Source: Thioalkalivibrio sulfidiphilus
GTDB lineage: Bacteria > Pseudomonadota > Gammaproteobacteria > Ectothiorhodospirales > Ectothiorhodospiraceae
Assembly (NCBI RefSeq): GCF_000377945.1
Contig: NZ_KB898944.1
Location: 1-47,008, forward strand
Direction of reading: 5' to 3'
Length of the DNA stretch: 47,008 nt
How positions within the stretch are numbered: the stretch's first letter is position 1; the number at the start of each line of letters is the position of its first letter. The notes under the pieces were generated by a model that did not search any database, had not been told where the DNA came from, and saw nothing but the letters and a program-made list of their open reading frames with translations. This document shows, one piece after another, positions 541 to 9,669 of the stretch. A program made the position numbers and the translations under genes.

Positions 541-846
541 CTACTGCGGGCGCCGGAACAGCTCACTATTGCGGGCGGTGTCGCGGTCGGAGACCACCGG
601 GATCTGCACGTCCTCGATCTCCTCGTTGGCCAGCTGATCCCCTTCCACCATGGGCGGCGGGGTCTGGGGCCGCATCTCGAACACCTGGGAGATGTCCGGC
701 AGCTGGACCCGGGAGATCAGCTCCGCAGCGGAGTCACGGGCCATGGGGTTCTGCAGGGTCAGTACCAGCCCGGTGGACAGCACCAGCGCGGAGAGCATGA
801 ACCGCTGGTCGCCAAGAAGAGTGTTCAAACGTTCGGTGAGGTGCAT
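541..846 (-). CDS. Small single-pass membrane protein, unknown function
   Basis: This 101-residue protein has one probable membrane helix near residues 17-33 (FMLSALVLSTGLVLTL) and a polar tail that is proline-rich and acidic. No cysteine pair, enzyme motif or known family was recognised. The strong terminator just downstream supports it as a real, separately transcribed gene. Translation starts at the first ATG, though the internal methionine at residue 17 is a possible alternative. The upstream 500 bp contains no other convincing gene. Confidence 0.6.
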   Translation of the reverse strand: MHLTERLNTLLGDQRFMLSALVLSTGLVLTLQNPMARDSAAELISRVQLPDISQVFEMRPQTPPPMVEGDQLANEEIEDVQIPVVSDRDTARNSELFRRPQ

Positions 847-1349
847 GGGCTATGCCTCTGGGATTGCTTGATGGTGAAACCGTAAGCCCGCGGCTCCCCG
901 GGGTCAAGTCTCCCTCCGACCCGTGCGGCCATGGGGCTGCGCTTCTTTTGCCTTGTTTTTGCAGGGTTTTGTGCACCAATCCGGTGCCAGGTACCGTGGT
1001 CCTGGAAGCGGCCAGAACGTGGGTTTGTACGGAGAGAGCCGTCTGGCCGGCCGTGTACCCATGGGTGACGAGGTCTGGTCGGAATCATGCGCAGGATCAT
1101 GGGTGTCCATATTCGTGATCCGGGTGTCCATATTCGTGATCCGCGAACAGCCGGCAATTTATGGATGCGCCTGGTCGAGATGGCATTCCGTGCCCGGACA
1201 GATACCGAGGACCAACGGCGGTGTTTCTCTGATGGATGGAAGATTCTGCGCCGCTCCGTAAGGTTATCGTCGAGGGGCCAGGACCCCAAACCCCAGGGGA
1301 CACCATTACGGGCCTGGAATCGCGCGAGGCTCTGACGAGATGGCACTGC
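847..1349. other. 500 bp intergenic region without a convincing gene
   Basis: The only overlapping frames are low-complexity shadows without ribosome binding sites. The region separates divergent genes and presumably holds both promoters. The one clear structure is a 21 bp tandem duplication described separately. No tRNA or obvious riboswitch was seen. Confidence 0.5.
1101..1142. repeat. Tandem pair of identical 21 bp units
   Basis: The unit GGGTGTCCATATTCGTGATC plus a final C occurs twice head to tail with no spacer. A GGATCA just upstream and the TGATCC inside each unit form partial dyads, so the pair could be a double operator. It could equally be an interspersed repeat. It lies about 210 bp upstream of the YeeE/TusA/GGDEF operon. 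Confidence 0.75.
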
Positions 1350-2462
1350 ATGGATGACTCCCCCTTCACGCTGATCGTGGTCGCATCAGCGCTCATTGGC
1401 CTGGTGGCCGGTTTCGTCATGCATCGTTCCGATTTCTGTGTCACGGCCATGTTCCGTGACCTGTTCCTGGTGAATGACCGGTTCCTGCTGCGCATGCTCG
1501 CGCTGCTGGTGGTGGTGAGCATGATCGCGTTTGAATTTGCCCGCCTCGGCGGACAGCTTTCCCCCTATCCCTTTCCGCTCCTGGGCCCCGCTTCACTGAC
1601 CACCCTGGTGGCAGGCGTGCTGTTTGGCATCGGCATGGTGCTCGCCGGTGGCTGCGTCGTGGGAACCCTCTACAAGCTGGGCGCGGGCAGCGTGGTGGCC
1701 GCGGTCGCCTTCATTGGTCTCCTGGTCGGTTCCGTGCTCTACGCCGAATGGCACCCTTGGTGGAGCGCTCTGGCCCGTTCCACGGCACTGCATTCGGCGG
1801 TCACCCTGCCGGAACTGCTGGGCCTGCAGCCCGCCTATCTGATCCTGCCCCTGGCACTGGTGGGGCTGGTCTACCTGGTGCGATGCCAGCGTCTCGGCCT
1901 GCTCAGCCGCCCGGCCTTTGCCCGGGGCCACATCGCGCCCTGGCAGGCAGCCTTGGTGCTGGCGGCCCTGGGCCTCATCTCTTGGTACGTGATCGGCATG
2001 CCCCTGGGGATCACCACTTCCTATGCCAAGCTCGGCGCCACCCTGGAATCCCTGGTCCAGCCCGAGCGGGTCGCAAGTCTCGCCTTCTTTCAGACACAGG
2101 GCCTGAACTACACGCCGCCGTTCGCGGACGCTGCGGTGCAGGGCGGGGCGGGCCCGCAACTGGATGCCATCGCCGCCATCCAGTATCCGCTGATCGCCGG
2201 TATCGTCCTGGGGGCCGCCGTGTCAGCCCTGAGCGTGGGCGAGTGGCGCTTGCGCTATCGCATTCCTGCCCGCCAGTATGCCTCGGCCCTGTTGGGAGGG
2301 ATTCTGCTGGGCGCCGCTTCGCGCATGGTCCCGGGGTGCAACATCTGGCATCTGTGGGGCGGGGTTCCCATACTGGCCACGCAGAGTCTGCTGTTTCTGC
2401 TCGGCCTGGTGCCTGGGGCATGGATTGGCAGCAAGCTGCTGTCCAGGATGGTGATTCGCTGA
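1350..2462 (+). CDS. YeeE/YedE family membrane protein, probable thiosulfate or sulfur-compound transporter
   Basis: This 370-residue polytopic protein belongs to the YeeE/YedE family, whose characterised member TsuA imports thiosulfate. Family hallmarks are the two glycine-cysteine motifs, AGGCVVGTLYKLG in the first half and VPGCNIWHLWGG near the C-terminus, plus MHRSDFCVT near the N-terminus. About nine to ten hydrophobic segments are evident. The ATG giving MDDSPFTLIVV was chosen because the frame upstream of it is not membrane-like. Its stop overlaps the start of the TusA-like gene, an arrangement typical of YeeE-TusA pairs. Inference: it delivers reduced sulfur to the TusA-like partner. 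The exact substrate is unknown. Confidence 0.88.
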   Translation: MDDSPFTLIVVASALIGLVAGFVMHRSDFCVTAMFRDLFLVNDRFLLRMLALLVVVSMIAFEFARLGGQLSPYPFPLLGPASLTTLVAGVLFGIGMVLAGGCVVGTLYKLGAGSVVAAVAFIGLLVGSVLYAEWHPWWSALARSTALHSAVTLPELLGLQPAYLILPLALVGLVYLVRCQRLGLLSRPAFARGHIAPWQAALVLAALGLISWYVIGMPLGITTSYAKLGATLESLVQPERVASLAFFQTQGLNYTPPFADAAVQGGAGPQLDAIAAIQYPLIAGIVLGAAVSALSVGEWRLRYRIPARQYASALLGGILLGAASRMVPGCNIWHLWGGVPILATQSLLFLLGLVPGAWIGSKLLSRMVIR

Positions 2463-2716
2463 TGGCCGAGAGTACACAGGACAACGTCGTGCTTGATATC
2501 AGGGGGCAGATCTGTCCCTCCTGTCTGTTGTTGGCCCTGAAGGAGCTCAACCGATACGGCGAGGCGGTACGCAGCGGCAGGCTGGAGATCGTCGTGATCA
2601 CCGACGACCGGCAGGCCACCAGTACCATTCCCGCCGCCGTGGACAAGATGGGCTACATCGCGGAAGTGACGCACATCCCGGAAGGCTACCGGATCTGCCT
2701 GCGCGGAGGGGTTTAA
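2462..2716 (+). CDS. TusA-like sulfur carrier with a CPxC motif
   Basis: This 84-residue protein has the TusA/SirA fold signature: LDIRGQICPSC, then an amphipathic helix, then the IVVITDDRQATSTIP strand-turn region. TusA proteins carry persulfide sulfur on the cysteine of a CPxP motif. Here the second proline is replaced by cysteine (C18-P19-S20-C21), giving a thioredoxin-like dithiol. The ATG overlaps the TGA of the upstream transporter gene, so the two are translationally coupled. It probably accepts sulfur from the transporter. The CPxC variant may allow disulfide chemistry in addition to persulfide transfer, but that is inference. Confidence 0.85.
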   Translation: MAESTQDNVVLDIRGQICPSCLLLALKELNRYGEAVRSGRLEIVVITDDRQATSTIPAAVDKMGYIAEVTHIPEGYRICLRGGV

Positions 2717-2717
2717 G

Positions 2718-4997
2718 GTGAGCGGCGTGGGGATGGACTACCAGTCGGAGTACTACAAGGCGATCTCCTATATCCGGGACAAGATCGATCAGATGCTGAC
2801 CCTGATCGGGACGCTGCCGCTGCGCCCCGAGGAGCTGGACGATCGCACCCTCATCGATCTCGATCCCATCGGCATCGTCAGCGATGCCTTCGGGCAGATC
2901 CTCTCCCACCTCCATGACACCAATCAGAAACTCGATGTGGCGCGTCAGGAGATCCGGGCCATTTTCGATTCCATGGATGCTGCCGTCGTCGTGGTCAACC
3001 ACGATGGCAGCATCGATGATTGCAACCGGCAGGCCCGGGAGTGGCTGTTCGGAGATCTGGATGCCCATCTGCTGATCGGAAGACCGCTGGCGGAATTGTG
3101 TCCCTGCGACAGTGAAATGCAGCAGCAAGTGCTGTCGGGCAGGGGGCGTGGGCAGACGATAGAGGTGGGCGGCCGCCATCTTCAGATCATCGTCTCTGAC
3201 ATCACCGACGCCCATCAGAACAGCATCAAGAAGGTGGTCATCTGTTTCGACGTCACGCAACAGAAGAAGACGGAGGCAAGCCTTGGCCTGTATGGCAAGG
3301 TCTTCGAGAGCACGGCGGAAGGGATCGCCATCACCGACAGCAGAATGCGTTTTCTGCAGGTCAACGAGGCCTACTGCCGGATCACCGGGTACAGTGACGG
3401 GGAACTCCTGGGCCGGACGCCTCGCATGCTCAAGTCTGGCCATCATGATGCGGCCTTCTATGCGGATATCAGCAAGACGCTGGAGGTCCGGGGACACTGG
3501 CGGGGCGAGATCCTGGATCGCACGCGTGATGGCCGCGTCATTCCCCTGCTGCAGACCATCAGCGTGGTACGCGACACCCAGGGCGCGGTGAGCCACTACA
3601 TCACCATCGTGACCGATATCTCGTCCATCAAGGAGACCCAGAGTCGCTTGGACTTTCTGGCCCACCACGACCCGCTCACCGAGCTTCCCAATCGGCTGCT
3701 GTTCACGGCACGGCTCGAGCATGCCATCGACTGGGCGGTGCGCAACCAGGCGCACTTCGGTCTGCTGTTCATCGACCTGGACCGTTTCAAGACCATCAAC
3801 GACAGCCTGGGTCATCAGCTCGGCGACAGGCTGCTGGTGCAGGTGGCCAAGCGGTTGCGGGGGCTGGTGCGCAAATCGGACACCATCGCCCGCCTGGGCG
3901 GTGACGAGTTCGTGGTGCTGGTCGAGGGCATTCATACCTCCAGCGAGGCGGAATTGCTTGCTGAGAAGCTGGTGCATGCCATGCGCCAACCCTTCTTCCT
4001 GGAAGAGGCCGAACTGCACATCGGCTGCAGCATCGGTATTACCCTCTACCCTGAGGACGGCGAGGATCCGGTGACCCTGCTGAAGAATGCCGATGCCGCC
4101 ATGTACCGGGTCAAGGACTTCGGGCGCGACGGGTTCTACAAGTTCAGCCAGGATCTGGCCGAGGCCGTCGACGAAAGACTGGAGCTTGAGACCGCGCTGC
4201 GCCAGGCCTTGCGTGAAAATCAGCTGCAGGTGCACTACCAGCCGGTGATCGACCTGACACAGGGTCGGATGGTGGCGGTGGAGGCCCTGGCGCGCTGGCA
4301 GCATGCGGAGCGGGGCGAGATATCGCCCAGCAGCTTTATCCGCCTGGCCGAGGAGACCAAGCTCATCCTGCCGCTGGGCGGGTGGATGGCCCGCACGGCC
4401 ATCGGACAATTCCGCCTCTGGCGTGACCGTGGTGTCGAGCTGGATTACGTCTCCATCAATACCTCGGGGATCGAGCTGTTCGACCCCGGCTTCGTGGACG
4501 GCTTGTTCGAGGCCCTGGAAGAGCACGGCCTGGAAGGCAGCCACCTGCAGATCGAGTTGACGGAGAACGTGCTCATGCAGGACTTCGAGTCCTGCCGTTC
4601 GGTGCTGGCCCGACTGCGCGAGCAGGGGATCCGCATCGCCATCGATGACTTCGGCACCGGCTATTCATCCCTGGCCTACCTCAAGCAGCTGCCCATCGAC
4701 ATGCTCAAGATCGACAGGTCCTTCATCAAGGACGTGCCCAGCGATCCCGGTGACTGTGCCATCGTGGAAACCATCATCGCCATGGCCCACCGGCTGGGGC
4801 TCGCCACGGTGGCCGAGGGCGTGGAAACCGAGGAGCAGGAAGACTATCTGCTGGCCATCGGCTGTCAGCGCTTGCAGGGATACCGTTATGCCCGGCCTCT
4901 GGATCCCGTCTCGCTGGAGCGCTTACACGCGGCTTCAGTCCGGCAAGCGGCGCCGGACAGTGCCTTGAGTGCTGCTAGGGTTCCAGGGGGCAGGTAA
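2718..4997 (+). CDS. PAS-PAS-GGDEF-EAL cyclic-di-GMP enzyme
   Basis: This 759-residue cytoplasmic protein has an N-terminal helical region, a PAS-like domain at about residues 75-190, and a clear PAS domain at about 195-305 (MRFLQVNEAYCRITGYS). A GGDEF domain follows with intact GGDEF at 394-398 and an inhibitory-site RKSD at 385-388, then an EAL domain with EAL at 522-524 and DDFGTGYSS from residue 643. Both cyclase and phosphodiesterase signatures are intact, so it could make or degrade c-di-GMP. No membrane segment is seen. The GTG start one base after the tusA stop is preceded by GGAGGGG. An ATG at codon 6 is an alternative start. It is cotranscribed with the sulfur-uptake genes and a second cyclase. 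Confidence 0.92.
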   Translation: MSGVGMDYQSEYYKAISYIRDKIDQMLTLIGTLPLRPEELDDRTLIDLDPIGIVSDAFGQILSHLHDTNQKLDVARQEIRAIFDSMDAAVVVVNHDGSIDDCNRQAREWLFGDLDAHLLIGRPLAELCPCDSEMQQQVLSGRGRGQTIEVGGRHLQIIVSDITDAHQNSIKKVVICFDVTQQKKTEASLGLYGKVFESTAEGIAITDSRMRFLQVNEAYCRITGYSDGELLGRTPRMLKSGHHDAAFYADISKTLEVRGHWRGEILDRTRDGRVIPLLQTISVVRDTQGAVSHYITIVTDISSIKETQSRLDFLAHHDPLTELPNRLLFTARLEHAIDWAVRNQAHFGLLFIDLDRFKTINDSLGHQLGDRLLVQVAKRLRGLVRKSDTIARLGGDEFVVLVEGIHTSSEAELLAEKLVHAMRQPFFLEEAELHIGCSIGITLYPEDGEDPVTLLKNADAAMYRVKDFGRDGFYKFSQDLAEAVDERLELETALRQALRENQLQVHYQPVIDLTQGRMVAVEALARWQHAERGEISPSSFIRLAEETKLILPLGGWMARTAIGQFRLWRDRGVELDYVSINTSGIELFDPGFVDGLFEALEEHGLEGSHLQIELTENVLMQDFESCRSVLARLREQGIRIAIDDFGTGYSSLAYLKQLPIDMLKIDRSFIKDVPSDPGDCAIVETIIAMAHRLGLATVAEGVETEEQEDYLLAIGCQRLQGYRYARPLDPVSLERLHAASVRQAAPDSALSAARVPGGR

Positions 4998-6704
4998 GTG
5001 CGACGTCAGCTGAGCATCCTGCTGTTCCTGGCCATCCTGCTGGCCTCCCTGGGCACCGCCCTGGTGGTGGCCCTCTCCATGCACAGGGAGCTGGTGGCCA
5101 GCAGCGATGCGCATGTCTCCAGGCTGCACGATCAGCTCCGGGATCGTTTCCATGCCTTCGACCTGTTGCTCGCGGAACAGGAGCAGGGCCTGAACCGCCG
5201 CCTGGAGGGCATCCTGCCCCGGGTGGCGCAGGAGCTCGAGGCCATGGTCGATGACCCCCTGGGCGCCACGCCCGAGCAGCTGGATCTGCTCAGCGACCGC
5301 CATGGGGTCTCCTATCTCTACCTCATCGACCGCGCAGGCCGGGTGGTGGCCACCAATTTCGCACCGGACCTGGGCCTTGATCTGGCGGCCGCCGGCGAGG
5401 GCATGCGGCAGATGTTCGAGCGCCTCTACGGCAGCGGCCAGATCAACGCGGACCGCTTCAATGCCTCCATCCACACCGGTCGGCTCTACAAATACGCCTA
5501 CTACGGCCCCCGTGACCGGGACTACATCCTGGAGGCGGCGGTGGACCTGCGCCACTACCTGCAGACCGAGGTGAGCCCGCGCATGGACCAGTTCCTGTTC
5601 AGGGATCTGCTGCGCCTGGGCACCGCGGACAATGGGCAGGTGACGGATTTCGACCTGTTCATCGCCACCGAGTACGGCGGCTGGTCCCTGTGGCGGGAAG
5701 GCCGCCGCCTGGAGGCGCAGGTGCTGGCAGCCCTGTACGAGGAGGACCGCGTGGTGCTGCAGGACAACGGCAGCCTGGCCGTCTACGAACACCTGCGCCG
5801 GGTGGACGCGGACGGCGCCGAGACCGACAGTCTCATCACCCTGGTGGCCCACGATCGCAGCGACCAGGAGCGGCTGCTGATGACCTCGGTGGGATTCGCC
5901 CTGCTGCTGGCCATGGCGCTCGGGATGCTGGCCTTCCTGGTGGCCCGTGTGATCATGCAGCGCAGCCTGCTGCGGCCGGTCTTGCAGATCGTCAGCCGGC
6001 TGGACGACGTGAGCCGGGGGGAGTTCCGTCGCCTGCCCACCACCGGGGTCTCGGAGCTGGACGTGATCACCCGGGGCGTGAACACCATGCTGGAGCGCAT
6101 CGACGACCGCGAGGAACGCCTGCTGGAGGCCAAGCATGAACTGGAGCGGCGGGTGCAGGAGCGGACCGCGGCACTGGAGTCCCTCAATGAACAGCTAGCG
6201 CACCTGGCCACCACCGACCCGCTGACCGGGCTCGCCAACCGGCGAAGCTTCTTCCAGGCCGCCGAGCGGGAGCTGGGTCGCGCGCGGCGCGCCGGCTACG
6301 CCACGGTCGTTGCCATGCTGGACCTGGATCACTTCAAGGACGTCAACGACACCCACGGCCACGCCGCGGGGGACCGCATCCTGGAACTGGTCAGCCGCGT
6401 GCTCGTCAAGGAACTGCGCGACGCCGACCTGGTGGGCAGGCTCGGCGGCGAGGAATTCGGCCTGCTGCTGGTGGATGTGAGCGTGGCCCATGCCCGGGAG
6501 ATCGTGGAACGCATCCGCACCCGGGTCATGCACTGCGACACGGGCCTGGATCTCAGCGTGACCCTGAGTGCTGGAATCGCCGACTGCGATCCCGCCATGG
6601 TCGGGCTCGACGTGGCCATGGCCCTGGCGGACCGCGCCCTGTACGAGGCCAAGCACCAGGGGCGCAACCGGGTCATCACGCGGGCCATCGGCAGCCCGTC
6701 ATGA
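4998..6704 (+). CDS. Membrane diguanylate cyclase with periplasmic sensor, HAMP and GGDEF
   Basis: This 568-residue protein has a membrane helix at about residues 5-27, a periplasmic sensor of about 270 residues that may be Cache-like, and a second helix at about 298-320. A HAMP-like linker and coiled coil lead into a GGDEF domain with GGEEF at 483-487 and an inhibitory RDAD motif five residues before it. The motifs are intact, so active c-di-GMP synthesis is expected. The GTG start directly follows the TAA of the GGDEF-EAL gene with AGGGGG upstream. The ligand is unknown. Its operon position suggests a periplasmic signal linked to sulfur compounds, which is inference. Confidence 0.9.
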   Translation: MRRQLSILLFLAILLASLGTALVVALSMHRELVASSDAHVSRLHDQLRDRFHAFDLLLAEQEQGLNRRLEGILPRVAQELEAMVDDPLGATPEQLDLLSDRHGVSYLYLIDRAGRVVATNFAPDLGLDLAAAGEGMRQMFERLYGSGQINADRFNASIHTGRLYKYAYYGPRDRDYILEAAVDLRHYLQTEVSPRMDQFLFRDLLRLGTADNGQVTDFDLFIATEYGGWSLWREGRRLEAQVLAALYEEDRVVLQDNGSLAVYEHLRRVDADGAETDSLITLVAHDRSDQERLLMTSVGFALLLAMALGMLAFLVARVIMQRSLLRPVLQIVSRLDDVSRGEFRRLPTTGVSELDVITRGVNTMLERIDDREERLLEAKHELERRVQERTAALESLNEQLAHLATTDPLTGLANRRSFFQAAERELGRARRAGYATVVAMLDLDHFKDVNDTHGHAAGDRILELVSRVLVKELRDADLVGRLGGEEFGLLLVDVSVAHAREIVERIRTRVMHCDTGLDLSVTLSAGIADCDPAMVGLDVAMALADRALYEAKHQGRNRVITRAIGSPS

Positions 6705-7123
6705 ACATCCGTCACGCCAGCGAAGAGGCCGATCTCGTTGCCTGCTACCCGGTGATGCACGCGCTTCGCCCACGGCTTGATCTGGAAGATTTCATCGCCC
6801 GGGTGCGACGCCAGCAGGCCGGCGGCTATCGCCTCGCCATGCTGGAGGCGGACGGCCAGGTGGTGACCGTGGCCGGCTATCGCCTGGGTGACAACCTGGC
6901 CTGGGGCCGCTTCCTTTACGTGGATGACCTGGTGACCCTGGAGAGCGCCCGTTCCCGGGGTCACGGGACCCGGATGCTGGCCTGGCTGCGTGCCGAGGCC
7001 CGCCGCGAGGGCTGCGTCCAGTTGCACCTGGACTCGGGCGTGCAGCGCGAGGATGCCCACCGTTTCTACCTGCGCGAGGGCCTGCAGATGACCAGCCTGC
7101 ATTTTGCCGAACGCCTGGACTGA
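6701..7123 (+). CDS. GNAT-family N-acetyltransferase
   Basis: This 140-residue protein fits the GNAT fold. It has a central beta region (LYVDDLVTLESARSRGHGTRML) containing the acetyl-CoA-binding R-x-x-G-x-G/A-like loop (RSRGHGTRM), and a C-terminal HRFYLREGL motif typical of the family. Length and motif order are normal for a single-domain GNAT. The ATG overlaps the stop of the diguanylate cyclase gene, so it ends the sulfur/c-di-GMP operon. The substrate is not predictable from the sequence. Confidence 0.88.
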   Translation: MNIRHASEEADLVACYPVMHALRPRLDLEDFIARVRRQQAGGYRLAMLEADGQVVTVAGYRLGDNLAWGRFLYVDDLVTLESARSRGHGTRMLAWLRAEARREGCVQLHLDSGVQREDAHRFYLREGLQMTSLHFAERLD

Positions 7124-7264
7124 TCCCTGGCCGATCCGGAGCTGCGTTGTTGCTATGACGGGCCGGACCCTTTGAACTGTCCAGCCGTTGTACTGTCATT
7201 GGGAAGGTAAGACTGCCCAATCTGTCGACAACGACGGCCACTGCCTTCCTTAAAGGATCTCACC

Positions 7265-8002
7265 ATGACCCACCCGCGCACCTTGATCTGGGCGATGCTC
7301 ACCCTGCTGCTGACCATTCCCCAGGTCCAGGCCCAATGGGAACTGGGCGTGGGCGTGATCGCCCGTGACGCCATCCAGAAGGGTGCCGACAGCGACCCCT
7401 TCGTGGTGCCCCTGATCACCTACTCCGGAGAGCGCGTCTACTTCCGCGGCATCGAGGCCGGCGTGCGCCTGTACGACACGGAACAGCACAGCACCACCCT
7501 GTTCGCGCGTCCCCGGCTGGACGGTTTCAAGGGCACGGACGATCCCTTCCTGGAGGGCATGGCTTCGCGGCGCAATTCCCTGGACGCGGGCCTGCGCCAC
7601 ACCGTGCGCGTGGGGCCGTGGCAGTACACGGCGCTCGCCACCACCGACGTCCTGGGCCGCAACGACGGCCAGACGGTCTCGGGCACGGTGGGCTACGTAT
7701 TCGGTTCCATGCGAAGCCTCCTGTTCGTGCCCTACGCGGGCGTGGAATGGATGAACGCGGATCTCGTGGACTACTACTACGGCGTGCGTGATGCCGAGGC
7801 CGTCCCCGGCAGGCCGGCCTACTCGGGCTCCGATGTCTGGAACCTGGTCTACGGTGCGCGCATGGTGGCACCCATCACCCCGCGGGTGTCATTCCAGGGT
7901 GTGCTCGCAGGCACCCGCTACGGCGACAGCGTGGCCGACAGCCCGCTGACCGAAGACCGTCACCGGGCCATCGCCATCTTCGGGGTCTCCTACCGGTTCT
8001 GA
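7265..8002 (+). CDS. MipA/OmpV family outer-membrane protein
   Basis: This 245-residue protein has a signal peptide of about 22 residues ending in VQA, followed by a beta-barrel. The sequence matches the MipA/OmpV family pattern: an N-terminal WELGVGV strand, a YFRGIEAGVRLYD segment and a terminal aromatic FGVSYRF. E. coli MipA is an MltA-interacting scaffold, while other members are porin-like or stress-related. The gene stands alone with about 140 bp upstream. A GC-rich hairpin some 15 bases past the stop lacks a T-run and is only a weak terminator candidate. The specific role is unknown. Confidence 0.87.
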   Translation: MTHPRTLIWAMLTLLLTIPQVQAQWELGVGVIARDAIQKGADSDPFVVPLITYSGERVYFRGIEAGVRLYDTEQHSTTLFARPRLDGFKGTDDPFLEGMASRRNSLDAGLRHTVRVGPWQYTALATTDVLGRNDGQTVSGTVGYVFGSMRSLLFVPYAGVEWMNADLVDYYYGVRDAEAVPGRPAYSGSDVWNLVYGARMVAPITPRVSFQGVLAGTRYGDSVADSPLTEDRHRAIAIFGVSYRF

Positions 8003-8018
8003 AACCGGATTTCCTACC

Positions 8019-8038
8019 GGACCCCGATCCGGGGGTCC
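8019..8038 (+). terminator. Weak terminator candidate after the MipA-like gene
   Basis: A 7 bp GC-rich stem (GGACCCC/GGGGTCC) with a six-base loop follows the MipA-family stop. There is no T-run after it, so intrinsic termination is doubtful. Confidence 0.3.
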
Positions 8039-8199
8039 GCCCGGCTCGGGGCCTTGCCTGTGTCCGGTCCTCGGCCGGATCTGAACCTGCCTTTCAGGGA
8101 TGCGCCGCAGGGCATGCTTGCTGCGGTTCATGACCTGTTCGCGCTATAGTCTTCACCAAACAAGCGCCATTGGGGGCGGGCCTGGGGGTAGGCGGGTCG

Positions 8200-9198
8200 A
8201 TGTTTTCCTGGTTCAGACGCAAACACAAACCGCAGCCCGAGGGGTTCACGCTGGCGGCTGCGCGCGCGCTGGCCCCGGAGAGCGACGCGGCGCCGGCTGC
8301 AACCGCCGTCCCCGAAGCCGCCGAGATCCATCGGCGCTACCTGGCCAGGCTGTTCCGTGCCGCCGTCGATGCCGATGCCGCCCTGCGGGAGGACGAGGCC
8401 GCCTGGCTGCGGCAGCGCGAAGAGGAACTGCGTTCGAAGCATGTGAGCCTGCTGGAACAGGTGCCGCGCCTGCCGTCGGTGATGCCGCGCCTGCTGGCGG
8501 CCATCAATGACCCGGCAAAGGGCAATGCCCGGGAACTGGCCGCCCTGCTGGAGAGCGATCCCGTGCTCGCCGCCAACGTGCTCGGCGTGGTCAACACGCC
8601 GGCCCTGCGGGTGCGCCGGGAGCCCATCGAAAGCCTGGAACAGGCGGTGGTCATACTGGGCTTTTCCGGCATGCGCGAGGTGATTGCCGCCGCCGCCATC
8701 AGCCCCATCGTGAACTTCAACCGTGACCGTCGTCTGGACGGGGAGGTCGTCAAGGGTCTCTGGTCCCAGAGTCTCGACGTGGCCGTGGCCATGCGCACGG
8801 CGGCCCGCAGGACGGCCTCGCCCCACGGTTTCGAGCTCTACCTGGCCGGGCTCACCCACGCCAGCGGTCTCATGGCCCTGCTCCGCGGCTTGGGCAGCCT
8901 GACCGCGGCCGCGCCCAGCGGGGCGTTTCTCAGCGGCCTGGAATCCCTGTCACGACGCTACACGGTCGCCATCGTGCGTCACTGGGGGCTGCCCGAGCAC
9001 ACGGCCCATGTGCTCTCCTGCCGGACGGGCGGGCGTTGCAGCCATCCGGAGGCGGCCATGCTTGAACAGGCCGTGACCCTCATGCGCGCCTGCGTGCTGG
9101 GGCAGGCGGGATTGCTGGATCAGACGCAACTGGCAGCCCTGCGTCAGCGGTTGCCGGACTACGCCGAGGGCTGGTGCCAGGGCGCGGCACATGCCTGA
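8200..9198 (+). CDS. HDOD-domain signalling protein
   Basis: This 332-residue cytoplasmic protein has a variable, alanine-rich N-terminus and an HDOD domain from about residue 90. The domain start shows VPRLPSVMPRLLAAINDP and the LESDPVLAANVLGVVNTP region typical of HDOD. HDOD domains resemble HD phosphohydrolases but lack the catalytic HD pair and act as signalling scaffolds, often near c-di-GMP enzymes. The ATG giving MFSWFRRKHKP was chosen over an upstream frame extension that is glycine-rich and unlikely. No output domain is attached. Confidence 0.85.
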   Translation: MFSWFRRKHKPQPEGFTLAAARALAPESDAAPAATAVPEAAEIHRRYLARLFRAAVDADAALREDEAAWLRQREEELRSKHVSLLEQVPRLPSVMPRLLAAINDPAKGNARELAALLESDPVLAANVLGVVNTPALRVRREPIESLEQAVVILGFSGMREVIAAAAISPIVNFNRDRRLDGEVVKGLWSQSLDVAVAMRTAARRTASPHGFELYLAGLTHASGLMALLRGLGSLTAAAPSGAFLSGLESLSRRYTVAIVRHWGLPEHTAHVLSCRTGGRCSHPEAAMLEQAVTLMRACVLGQAGLLDQTQLAALRQRLPDYAEGWCQGAAHA

Positions 9199-9225
9199 GC
9201 TTCATATCCAGGGGCCCGGCGTGGC

Positions 9226-9669
9226 ATGAAGATCTGGGTGGACGCCGACGCCTGTCCCGGGGTGATCCGGGAGATCCTGTTCCGTGCCTCGCAGCGTACC
9301 GGCGTGGCGCTGACCCTGGTGGCCAACCAGCCGGTCAAGGTGCCGCCCTCACCCCACATCAGCATGCTGCAGGTGTCTGCGGGTTTCGACGTGGCGGACA
9401 ACGAGATCGTCAAGCGTGTCAGCGCGGGCGACCTGGTGATCACCAGCGATATCCTCCTGGCGGCGGAGGTGATCGCCAAGGGAGGCCATGCCCTGAGTCC
9501 CCGGGGCGAACTGCACACCCGGGAGAACATCGGCGCGCGGCTCAACATGCGCGACTTCATGGACACCCTGCGTGCCAGCGGCATCCAGTCCGGCGGTCCG
9601 CCGGCGCTCAACCAGAAGGACCGCCAGGCCTTCGCCAATCAGCTGGACCGGCTGCTCGCCAAGCGTTGA
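9226..9669 (+). CDS. yaiI: YaiI/YqxD family protein (UPF0178)
   Basis: This 147-residue protein matches the YaiI family along its full length, beginning [17 protein letters not shown] and containing the [15 protein letters not shown] core and the [11 protein letters not shown] motif. The fold is predicted to be PIN-like, with acidic residues in the first motif. The biochemical function of the family is not established. The start 27 bases after the HDOD gene suggests cotranscription. Confidence 0.92.

Follow-up and report, generated by a model that had tools for sequence, protein, structure and literature searches.

How do bacterial regulators sense external sulfur? The matter is poorly understood (PMC11582611; what we say here and below of cited papers refers to excerpts of their texts), and it is raised by a locus of Thioalkalivibrio sulfidiphilus in which genes for sulfur uptake abut genes for signaling. 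The locus occupies positions 1350-7123 of the stretch of DNA analyzed here (the window, 47,008 nucleotides, which is an entire contig, NZ_KB898944.1, of a 3.05-Mb genome). Sequence and Pfam matches identify its five abutting plus-strand genes as coding for a YeeE-family importer, a TusA-like sulfur carrier, a PAS-GGDEF-EAL sensor, a membrane HAMP-GGDEF protein and a GNAT acetyltransferase (genes 1 to 5). An earlier note on this DNA viewed them as one operon in which the availability of sulfur compounds might be coupled to cyclic di-GMP (c-di-GMP), the link being either a dithiol on the carrier or the periplasmic sensor of the membrane protein. The analysis described below partly supports this idea, which was right in spirit but wrong in extent. 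Genes 1-3 form a conserved transporter-carrier-sensor cassette that is found in several bacterial groups, a conclusion that is firmly supported, and they probably constitute a transporter-coupled signaling system in which imported sulfane sulfur would be relayed by the carrier to the sensor.

Conservation of the three-gene cassette

When 84,980 species genomes were scanned with the YeeE protein by a pattern-based method, 79 loci were kept, 12 of which (L010-L021) encode close YeeE proteins with 47-78% identity; the closest named relative is Thioalkalivibrio denitrificans, at 78%. The order YeeE, TusA-like carrier, PAS sensor is present in all 12 of these seed loci, whose labels span Gammaproteobacteria, Burkholderiales/Thiobacillaceae/Hydrogenophilus, Magnetovibrio, Desulfuromonadales, Deltaproteobacteria and Myxococcota. 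The sensors begin with an N-terminal domain (ND) of approximately 87 amino acids (aa), wherein 22 of 87 alignment columns are invariant among 13 sequences, and each seed genome holds one copy.

The ND profile was then searched alone, without reference to YeeE, and a genome was counted as matching at E ≤ 0.001. Matches were found in 3 of 47 genomes of the window's own order (the same three that have a close YeeE, with two of the five genus members lacking a match), 5 of 369 in a sample of Gammaproteobacteria (including the window's genome and two weak matches), and 7 of 349 in the order to which the Hydrogenophilus locus and the Burkholderiales metagenome-assembled genome (MAG) both belong (two seeds and three weak matches included). 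The class of L021 gave 101 of 277 genomes, two of these being seeds and two having weak matches only, a sample of its phylum gave 22 of 297, with one weak match and an overlap of several genomes with the class search, and the class of the Magnetovibrio locus gave 1 of 289, which is the seed itself. We take the class of L021 to be Desulfuromonadia, since the Desulfuromonadales MAG L019 belongs there.

The window, the 12 seeds, a close relative (G044) and the flanks of new ND matches below E 1e-14 make up 135 loci, some of which share a genome. Nine places where ND matched weakly (E 8e-5 to 8e-4) were excluded, one being a second place in G995, which has a strong match; the flanks of the weak places in G092 and G185 hold no ND at E 1e-4, with a weak one in G092. 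By origin, the class of L021 accounts for 105 of the 135 loci, other parts of its phylum for 14 and further groups for 16, search effort having been uneven across groups; the loci from other classes include Gamma-, Beta- and Alphaproteobacteria and a MAG labeled Myxococcota.

Among the 121 non-seed loci (the 135 minus 13 seeds, window included, and G044), both YeeE and the TusA-like gene lie beside the sensor in 110, and in 107 the gene order is the same. Among the 11 exceptions, L248 and L286 run into a contig end, L159 and L250 sit on short contigs, and the others are real or diverged. Across all 135 loci the orders are YeeE-TusA-sensor (121), sensor-YeeE-TusA (3), TusA-sensor (4), YeeE-sensor (1) and sensor alone (6). 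In 67 other YeeE loci (L022-L088), some of them short, ND was not detected at E 1e-3. Because of this co-occurrence in 110 of 121 loci and its absence from the other 67, we conclude that ND, the carrier and this clade of YeeE belong together. A quick tree of 128 non-redundant YeeE sequences (four of its outgroup branches are long, two of these being flagged as meeting) places 96 cassette YeeEs on one side of a branch and the 32 others on the other side (SH-aLRT 100). Beyond the cassette, the commonest same-strand neighbor occurs at just 22 of the 135 loci (clusters were read by eye, disregarding antisense frames, and offsets are rough for some minus-strand loci), and therefore no other gene stands out as a partner of the carrier.

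Constant input domain and exchanged outputs of the sensor

The window sensor retains intact RLGGDEF and EALAR signature motifs and is a predicted c-di-GMP enzyme of the GGDEF-EAL type. Scans of the window and family sensors revealed no Pfam family with its best stretch on ND, and the ND profile matches no PDB chain at E ≤ 1. Structural modeling predicts a helical domain with a long helix leading into the first PAS domain (PAS1), with a mean pLDDT of 78, values of approximately 62-75 over most of ND, and a pTM of 0.58. The 50 listed fold matches of the ND-PAS1 model are essentially PAS-type or sensor proteins, leaving ND itself without an assigned fold. In this model, the helix is a plausible transmission element between the two domains.

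Four of the 12 seed sensors are histidine kinases and eight are GGDEF-EAL proteins. In the full set of 135, classified by similarity to four reference segments with a Pfam check on 17 sensor frames, 61 carry a histidine kinase output, 48 GGDEF-EAL, and three GGDEF only (two cut by contig ends), while 23 have no recognized output (five cut); L108 is counted among the last although the frame just downstream codes for PAS-GGDEF-EAL, and L152 and L236 may be interrupted genes. Mapped on the YeeE tree, the outputs require kinase and GGDEF-EAL to have been exchanged at least six times (78 rows; mean of 100 shuffles, 25.0), or at least 10 changes among kinase, GGDEF-EAL and none (88 rows; 34.3). These counts use full-length sensors; a count that takes in cut-off sensors gives 17 changes. 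Outputs are clustered on the tree, but have been repeatedly exchanged. An input that is kept while the output is exchanged is as expected if the first two genes provide the input of the sensor. The earlier proposal of a link between sulfur import and signaling holds as a conserved arrangement of genes, but c-di-GMP is only one of several outputs.

A frame with a sigma-54 activator motif starts within 200 bases after the sensor at nine kinase and seven GGDEF-EAL loci among the 96 with a frame there (L154, L156, L160, L162, L166, L170, L171, L202, L204, L238, L239, L269, L278, L283, L284 and L287). Pfam confirms the activators of L160 (GGDEF-EAL), which lacks a receiver domain, and L202 (kinase), which has one. 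At L019 (11102-11413) and L147 (4228-4539), the frame after the kinase resembles by eye a small ArsR-type regulator, recalling SoxR. Sensors of approximately 335 aa without a recognized output occur at L164, L168, L172, L176, L186, L245, L246 and others, in full or partial cassettes; by Pfam, the frame at L164 contains PAS domains only.

A family importer and a distinctive carrier

The window YeeE matches PF04143 over profile positions 1-310 of 310 (164.2 bits, cut-off 27), establishing its family membership. Scores remain below the cut-offs of the thiosulfate transporter TsuA models (NF052577, 124.6 of 400 bits; NF041049, 70.3 of 645) and of the NCBIfam selenium YedE/FdhT model (105 bits). 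Residues Cys30, Cys102 and Cys330 line up with Cys22, Cys91 and Cys293 in the solved YeeE structure of Spirochaeta thermophila (StYeeE), where these cysteines form a relay (PMC11073785), and are kept in 118 of 118, 120 of 120 and 117 of 117 cassette YeeEs having the respective column (four of 124 are too short for the alignment). Arg28 and Glu261 of StYeeE, which contact its partner YeeD (PMC11073785), align with the invariant residues Arg36 and Glu298.

The carrier matches the TusA family PF01206 with 43.5 bits (cut-off 28.6), and its model (pLDDT 89.7) has a predicted TusA-like fold. Foldseek returns SirA-like 3hz7 as the best match (E 1.9e-4), followed by YeeE-YeeD (8j4c, 8k1r) and TusA (1dcj, 3lvk) at E 2e-3 to 1e-2. 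Where ordinary TusA proteins have CPxP, the window carrier has CPSC, the first cysteine of which is Cys18, and the second proline is absent from all 127 readable sequences among 128 carriers. The motifs are CPST (51), CPSS (24), CPSC (19), CPSA (11), CPAC (10), CPAT (7) and CPAS (5), with one unread. TusA-like open reading frames (ORFs) at YeeE loci outside the cassette family have CPxP in nine of 12 cases and CPHT in the other three, and the window's genome itself holds a separate CPxP TusA beside frames that by eye are rhodanese-like and HdrC-like. A second motif cysteine is present in only 29 of 128 carriers (CPSC and CPAC), and therefore the dithiol proposed earlier cannot be the general mechanism, whereas the single conserved cysteine can and remains a plausible link.

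Cysteines are also concentrated in the sensor, where the 95 residues after ND, corresponding to PAS1, contain 3.73 on average, compared with 1.95 in the next 95 residues and 1.31 per 95 in the remainder. At least two cysteines are present in PAS1 of 123 of 128 sensors versus 73 in the next segment, and at least one in 127 versus 112; L206 has none in PAS1.

A proposed mechanism and its alternatives

These features suggest that imported sulfur serves as a signal for the cell. The YeeE-family protein would move a sulfane-sulfur compound (thiosulfate, polysulfide or similar) inward along its cysteines, and the dedicated carrier would take the sulfur onto its conserved cysteine. The loaded carrier might then dock on the helical ND, where the sulfur could be passed to the cysteine-rich PAS1, or the carrier itself could be read by this domain. 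The helix from ND to PAS1 would carry the change to the exchangeable output, which in the window is GGDEF-EAL, presumably raising or lowering c-di-GMP, and elsewhere is a histidine kinase. We see roughly even chances for the stronger proposition that these systems represent a new class of transporter-coupled signaling, in which a dedicated non-CPxP TusA variant, bearing the imported sulfur as a persulfide, is the messenger that docks on the hitherto unnamed ND, loads the cysteine-rich PAS and drives the attached output.

Several observations weigh against this interpretation. Four loci have a carrier and a sensor with no YeeE found, L201 and L288 hold ND alone with 6 kb upstream read, and at L108 YeeE is split and TusA was not found. 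Pairwise distances for YeeE, TusA, ND and PAS1 correlate weakly over 116 loci (Spearman 0.18-0.37, above 200 permutations). Searched by sequence against the PDB, the carrier profile retrieves no TusA structure, only a weak copper-ATPase match, and 18 full-length sensor frames have no recognized output, a few of them probably being interrupted genes. The three relay cysteines are also present in 55, 57 and 56 of 57 YeeEs outside the cassette family; being family-wide, they are no marker of signaling. The cysteine pattern of PAS1 is likewise non-uniform: a C-x(3-5)-C-x(6-11)-C triad occurs in 80 of 128 sensors, CxC in 25 and either in 95, versus 27 triads and one CxC in the next 95 residues. We favor a persulfide relay for these cysteines, but given this variation they may instead constitute a metal site.

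The sensor might alternatively use an independent PAS ligand (heme, flavin or a redox group) to regulate the importer or sulfur metabolism, in which case YeeE and the carrier would simply be the uptake system under its control. Sensor-target gene pairs are common. Moreover, the Foldseek matches of the ND-PAS1 model include the heme PAS proteins FixL, Aer2 and DosP among other PAS proteins, and DosP is discussed as sulfide-responsive (PMC9918477). However, control of uptake needs neither a dedicated carrier variant nor a conserved ND, a GGDEF-EAL enzyme lacks a direct route to control of the operon, and the enrichment of cysteines in PAS1 is left unexplained, making this alternative unlikely, though it is the one we take most seriously.

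We consider it improbable that what the cassette handles is not sulfur but a chemically similar element or ion, such as selenium, tellurium or another oxyanion. The window YeeE scores 105 bits with the selenium model and 124.6 with TsuA, both below cut-off, and the carrier weakly resembles YedF (23.5 of 79 bits, NCBIfam); however, the relay cysteines of the thiosulfate transporter are present, and no selenium gene was recognized by eye among recurrent neighbors. Finally, a chance juxtaposition of a sulfur-uptake pair with unrelated signaling genes is an apt description of genes 4 and 5, whose order is seen in the window and G044 only, but for genes 1-3 it is refuted by their linkage in most ND-containing loci across several classes, and as an account of the whole locus we give it hardly any credence.

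The cassette, which is frequent in one class of Desulfobacterota, is a compact system with import, carrier and readout encoded together, and its c-di-GMP or phosphorylation output would be directly readable. It also serves as an annotation unit for sensors whose N-terminal domain matched no Pfam family in the scans made here, and the non-CPxP TusA provides a sequence mark for carriers likely to serve signaling.

Gene organization in the window and local additions

The YeeE frame is open from position 1236, and the 370-aa frame of T. denitrificans begins at the equivalent of 1350 (Table 1). Gene 1 and gene 2 share one base between stop and start (TGATG at 2460), the sensor gene begins with GTG at 2718 after TAA at 2714-2716, gene 4 begins with GTG at 4998 directly after TAA at 4995-4997, and genes 4 and 5 share the four bases ATGA at 6701 (TGA and ATG). 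A scan of 800-8300 revealed six terminator-like sites (3.2 expected from shuffles), all within genes or outside the five-gene group and none in the gene junctions, and no promoter-like sites. Junctions, Pfam matches and terminator scan therefore bear out the earlier description of five overlapping or abutting genes with no terminators between them, and genes 4 and 5 are probably co-transcribed with genes 1-3.

Table 1. Coordinates of the five genes and of the sensor domains discussed in the text.
Feature	Position	Strand	Basis
YeeE/YedE-family importer, 370 aa, core gene 1	1350..2462	+	Pfam PF04143; profile matches 6leo, 8k1r, 8j4c
TusA-like sulfur carrier, 84 aa, core gene 2, motif CPSC	2462..2716	+	Pfam PF01206, predicted fold
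ND-PAS-PAS-GGDEF-EAL sensor, 759 aa, core gene 3	2718..4997	+	Pfam PAS, GGDEF, EAL
ND, conserved N-terminal domain of the sensor, up to the edge of the first PAS	2733..2993	+	Alignment conservation
First PAS domain (approximate bounds), CPC in the window	2994..3278	+	Cysteine counts across the family
Membrane HAMP-GGDEF protein, outside the conserved unit	4998..6704	+	N-terminal 399 aa match 2/47 family genomes
GNAT acetyltransferase, no sign of membership in the conserved unit	6701..7123	+	Pfam PF00583

A five-gene operon as the conserved unit was rejected. The N-terminal 399 aa of the membrane protein match only the window and G044 among 47 family genomes; therefore, this gene is a local addition, and the link proposed earlier through its periplasmic sensor does not hold in general. 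No match to the GNAT protein was found in L010-L021 at E 1e-5, and genes 4 and 5 together are a local addition in close relatives. The five-gene order, whose conservation across sulfur oxidizers the earlier note named as a check, was seen outside the window in G044 only, where collinearity with the window extends over all eight genes, YeeE through DUF188, at 90-98% identity. With search effort uneven across groups, 105 of the 135 cassette loci belong to the class taken as Desulfuromonadia and not to sulfur oxidizers. An order unique to this strain, named earlier as grounds for refutation, is thus nearly the case for genes 4 and 5 and clearly not for genes 1-3.

Other observations concern variants of the cassette and its surroundings. 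The yeeE gene of G044 (L112) has one extra base near its end that shifts its tail into the tusA frame, and we did not accept the apparent YeeE-TusA fusion, since it rests on this one-base difference, for which mutation and sequencing error are indistinguishable. Fusion of carrier and sensor genes was considered as evidence of contact, and no ORF with both TusA and ND exists among the listed ORFs. The cassette is permuted to sensor-YeeE-TusA at L151, L157 and L163. At L108 (G181, 4784-8355), two half-length Sulf_transp genes come ahead of an ND-PAS frame, after which PAS-GGDEF-EAL has a frame of its own; no TusA was found between. At L110 (G092, 8645-8984), an 89-aa N-terminal remnant of YeeE comes before a short stretch matching the EAL end of the window sensor (E 0.001), as if a deletion had run through the cassette and left a scar. 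A different GGDEF gene lies at the end of the sensor gene in L013, its dCache-like part scoring just below the Pfam cut-off (44.1 of 45 bits). In the window, a 21-base unit, GGGTGTCCATATTCGTGATCC, occurs in two perfect tandem copies at 1101-1142, approximately 200 bases 5' of the YeeE start, and an HDOD protein encoded at 8170-9198, after a MipA-like gene, is another possible signaling gene nearby.

Comparison with known systems

A search of titles and abstract openings in the open-license literature revealed no description of the ND-bearing three-gene cassette, an absence that is not proof, and neither ND nor the cassette is described in the excerpts of PMC11582611, PMC13293266 and PMC9918477. 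Nevertheless, several known systems share parts of its architecture. In Hyphomicrobium denitrificans, the YeeE-like protein SoxT1B signals to the repressor SoxR, and TusA has been raised as a possible sulfur donor (PMC11582611). As we propose for the cassette, a YeeE-like protein there is devoted to signaling rather than bulk import. Its target, however, represses transcription and belongs to a soxSRT arrangement, whereas the window combines a TusA variant with an ND-PAS sensor whose outputs are swapped; no ArsR-type match that would indicate a soxR gene beside YeeE was obtained among nine scanned window proteins (541-9666).

Two further systems resemble the first two genes. YeeE-YeeD, or TsuA-TsuB, likewise consists of an importer with the same three cysteines and a small TusA-fold partner (PMC11073785). 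Of four StYeeE contact residues given in that paper, the alignment shows Arg28 and Glu261 kept in the window YeeE, Arg98 replaced conservatively by Lys, and Glu101 lost to Ala. Unlike the CPSx/CPAx carriers of the cassette, which are accompanied by a sensor gene, YeeD has CPxP and serves assimilation (PMC11073785). In the YTD cluster (yeeE-tusA-dsrEFH type II), which is found in Desulfobacterota, YeeE and TusA are proposed to act as a sulfur delivery unit for DsrEFH (PMC13293266). No dsrEFH genes were found among the same nine window proteins or recognized by eye in the neighbor clusters of at least eight loci, and it is the sensor with which the cassette pairs YeeE and TusA, in place of the DsrEFH acceptor.

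A parallel on the sensor side is NreB, a sulfide-responsive PAS histidine kinase whose cluster contains a tusA homolog and for which heme is suggested as the sensing group (PMC9918477). Like NreB, the kinase versions of the cassette sensor are PAS kinases encoded near a tusA homolog and, in the mechanism proposed here, would sense a sulfur species. They differ in that the main text of PMC9918477, as excerpted, mentions no YeeE and suggests heme, whereas the cassette adds an importer from which, in the mechanism we favor, the sulfur signal itself would be received.

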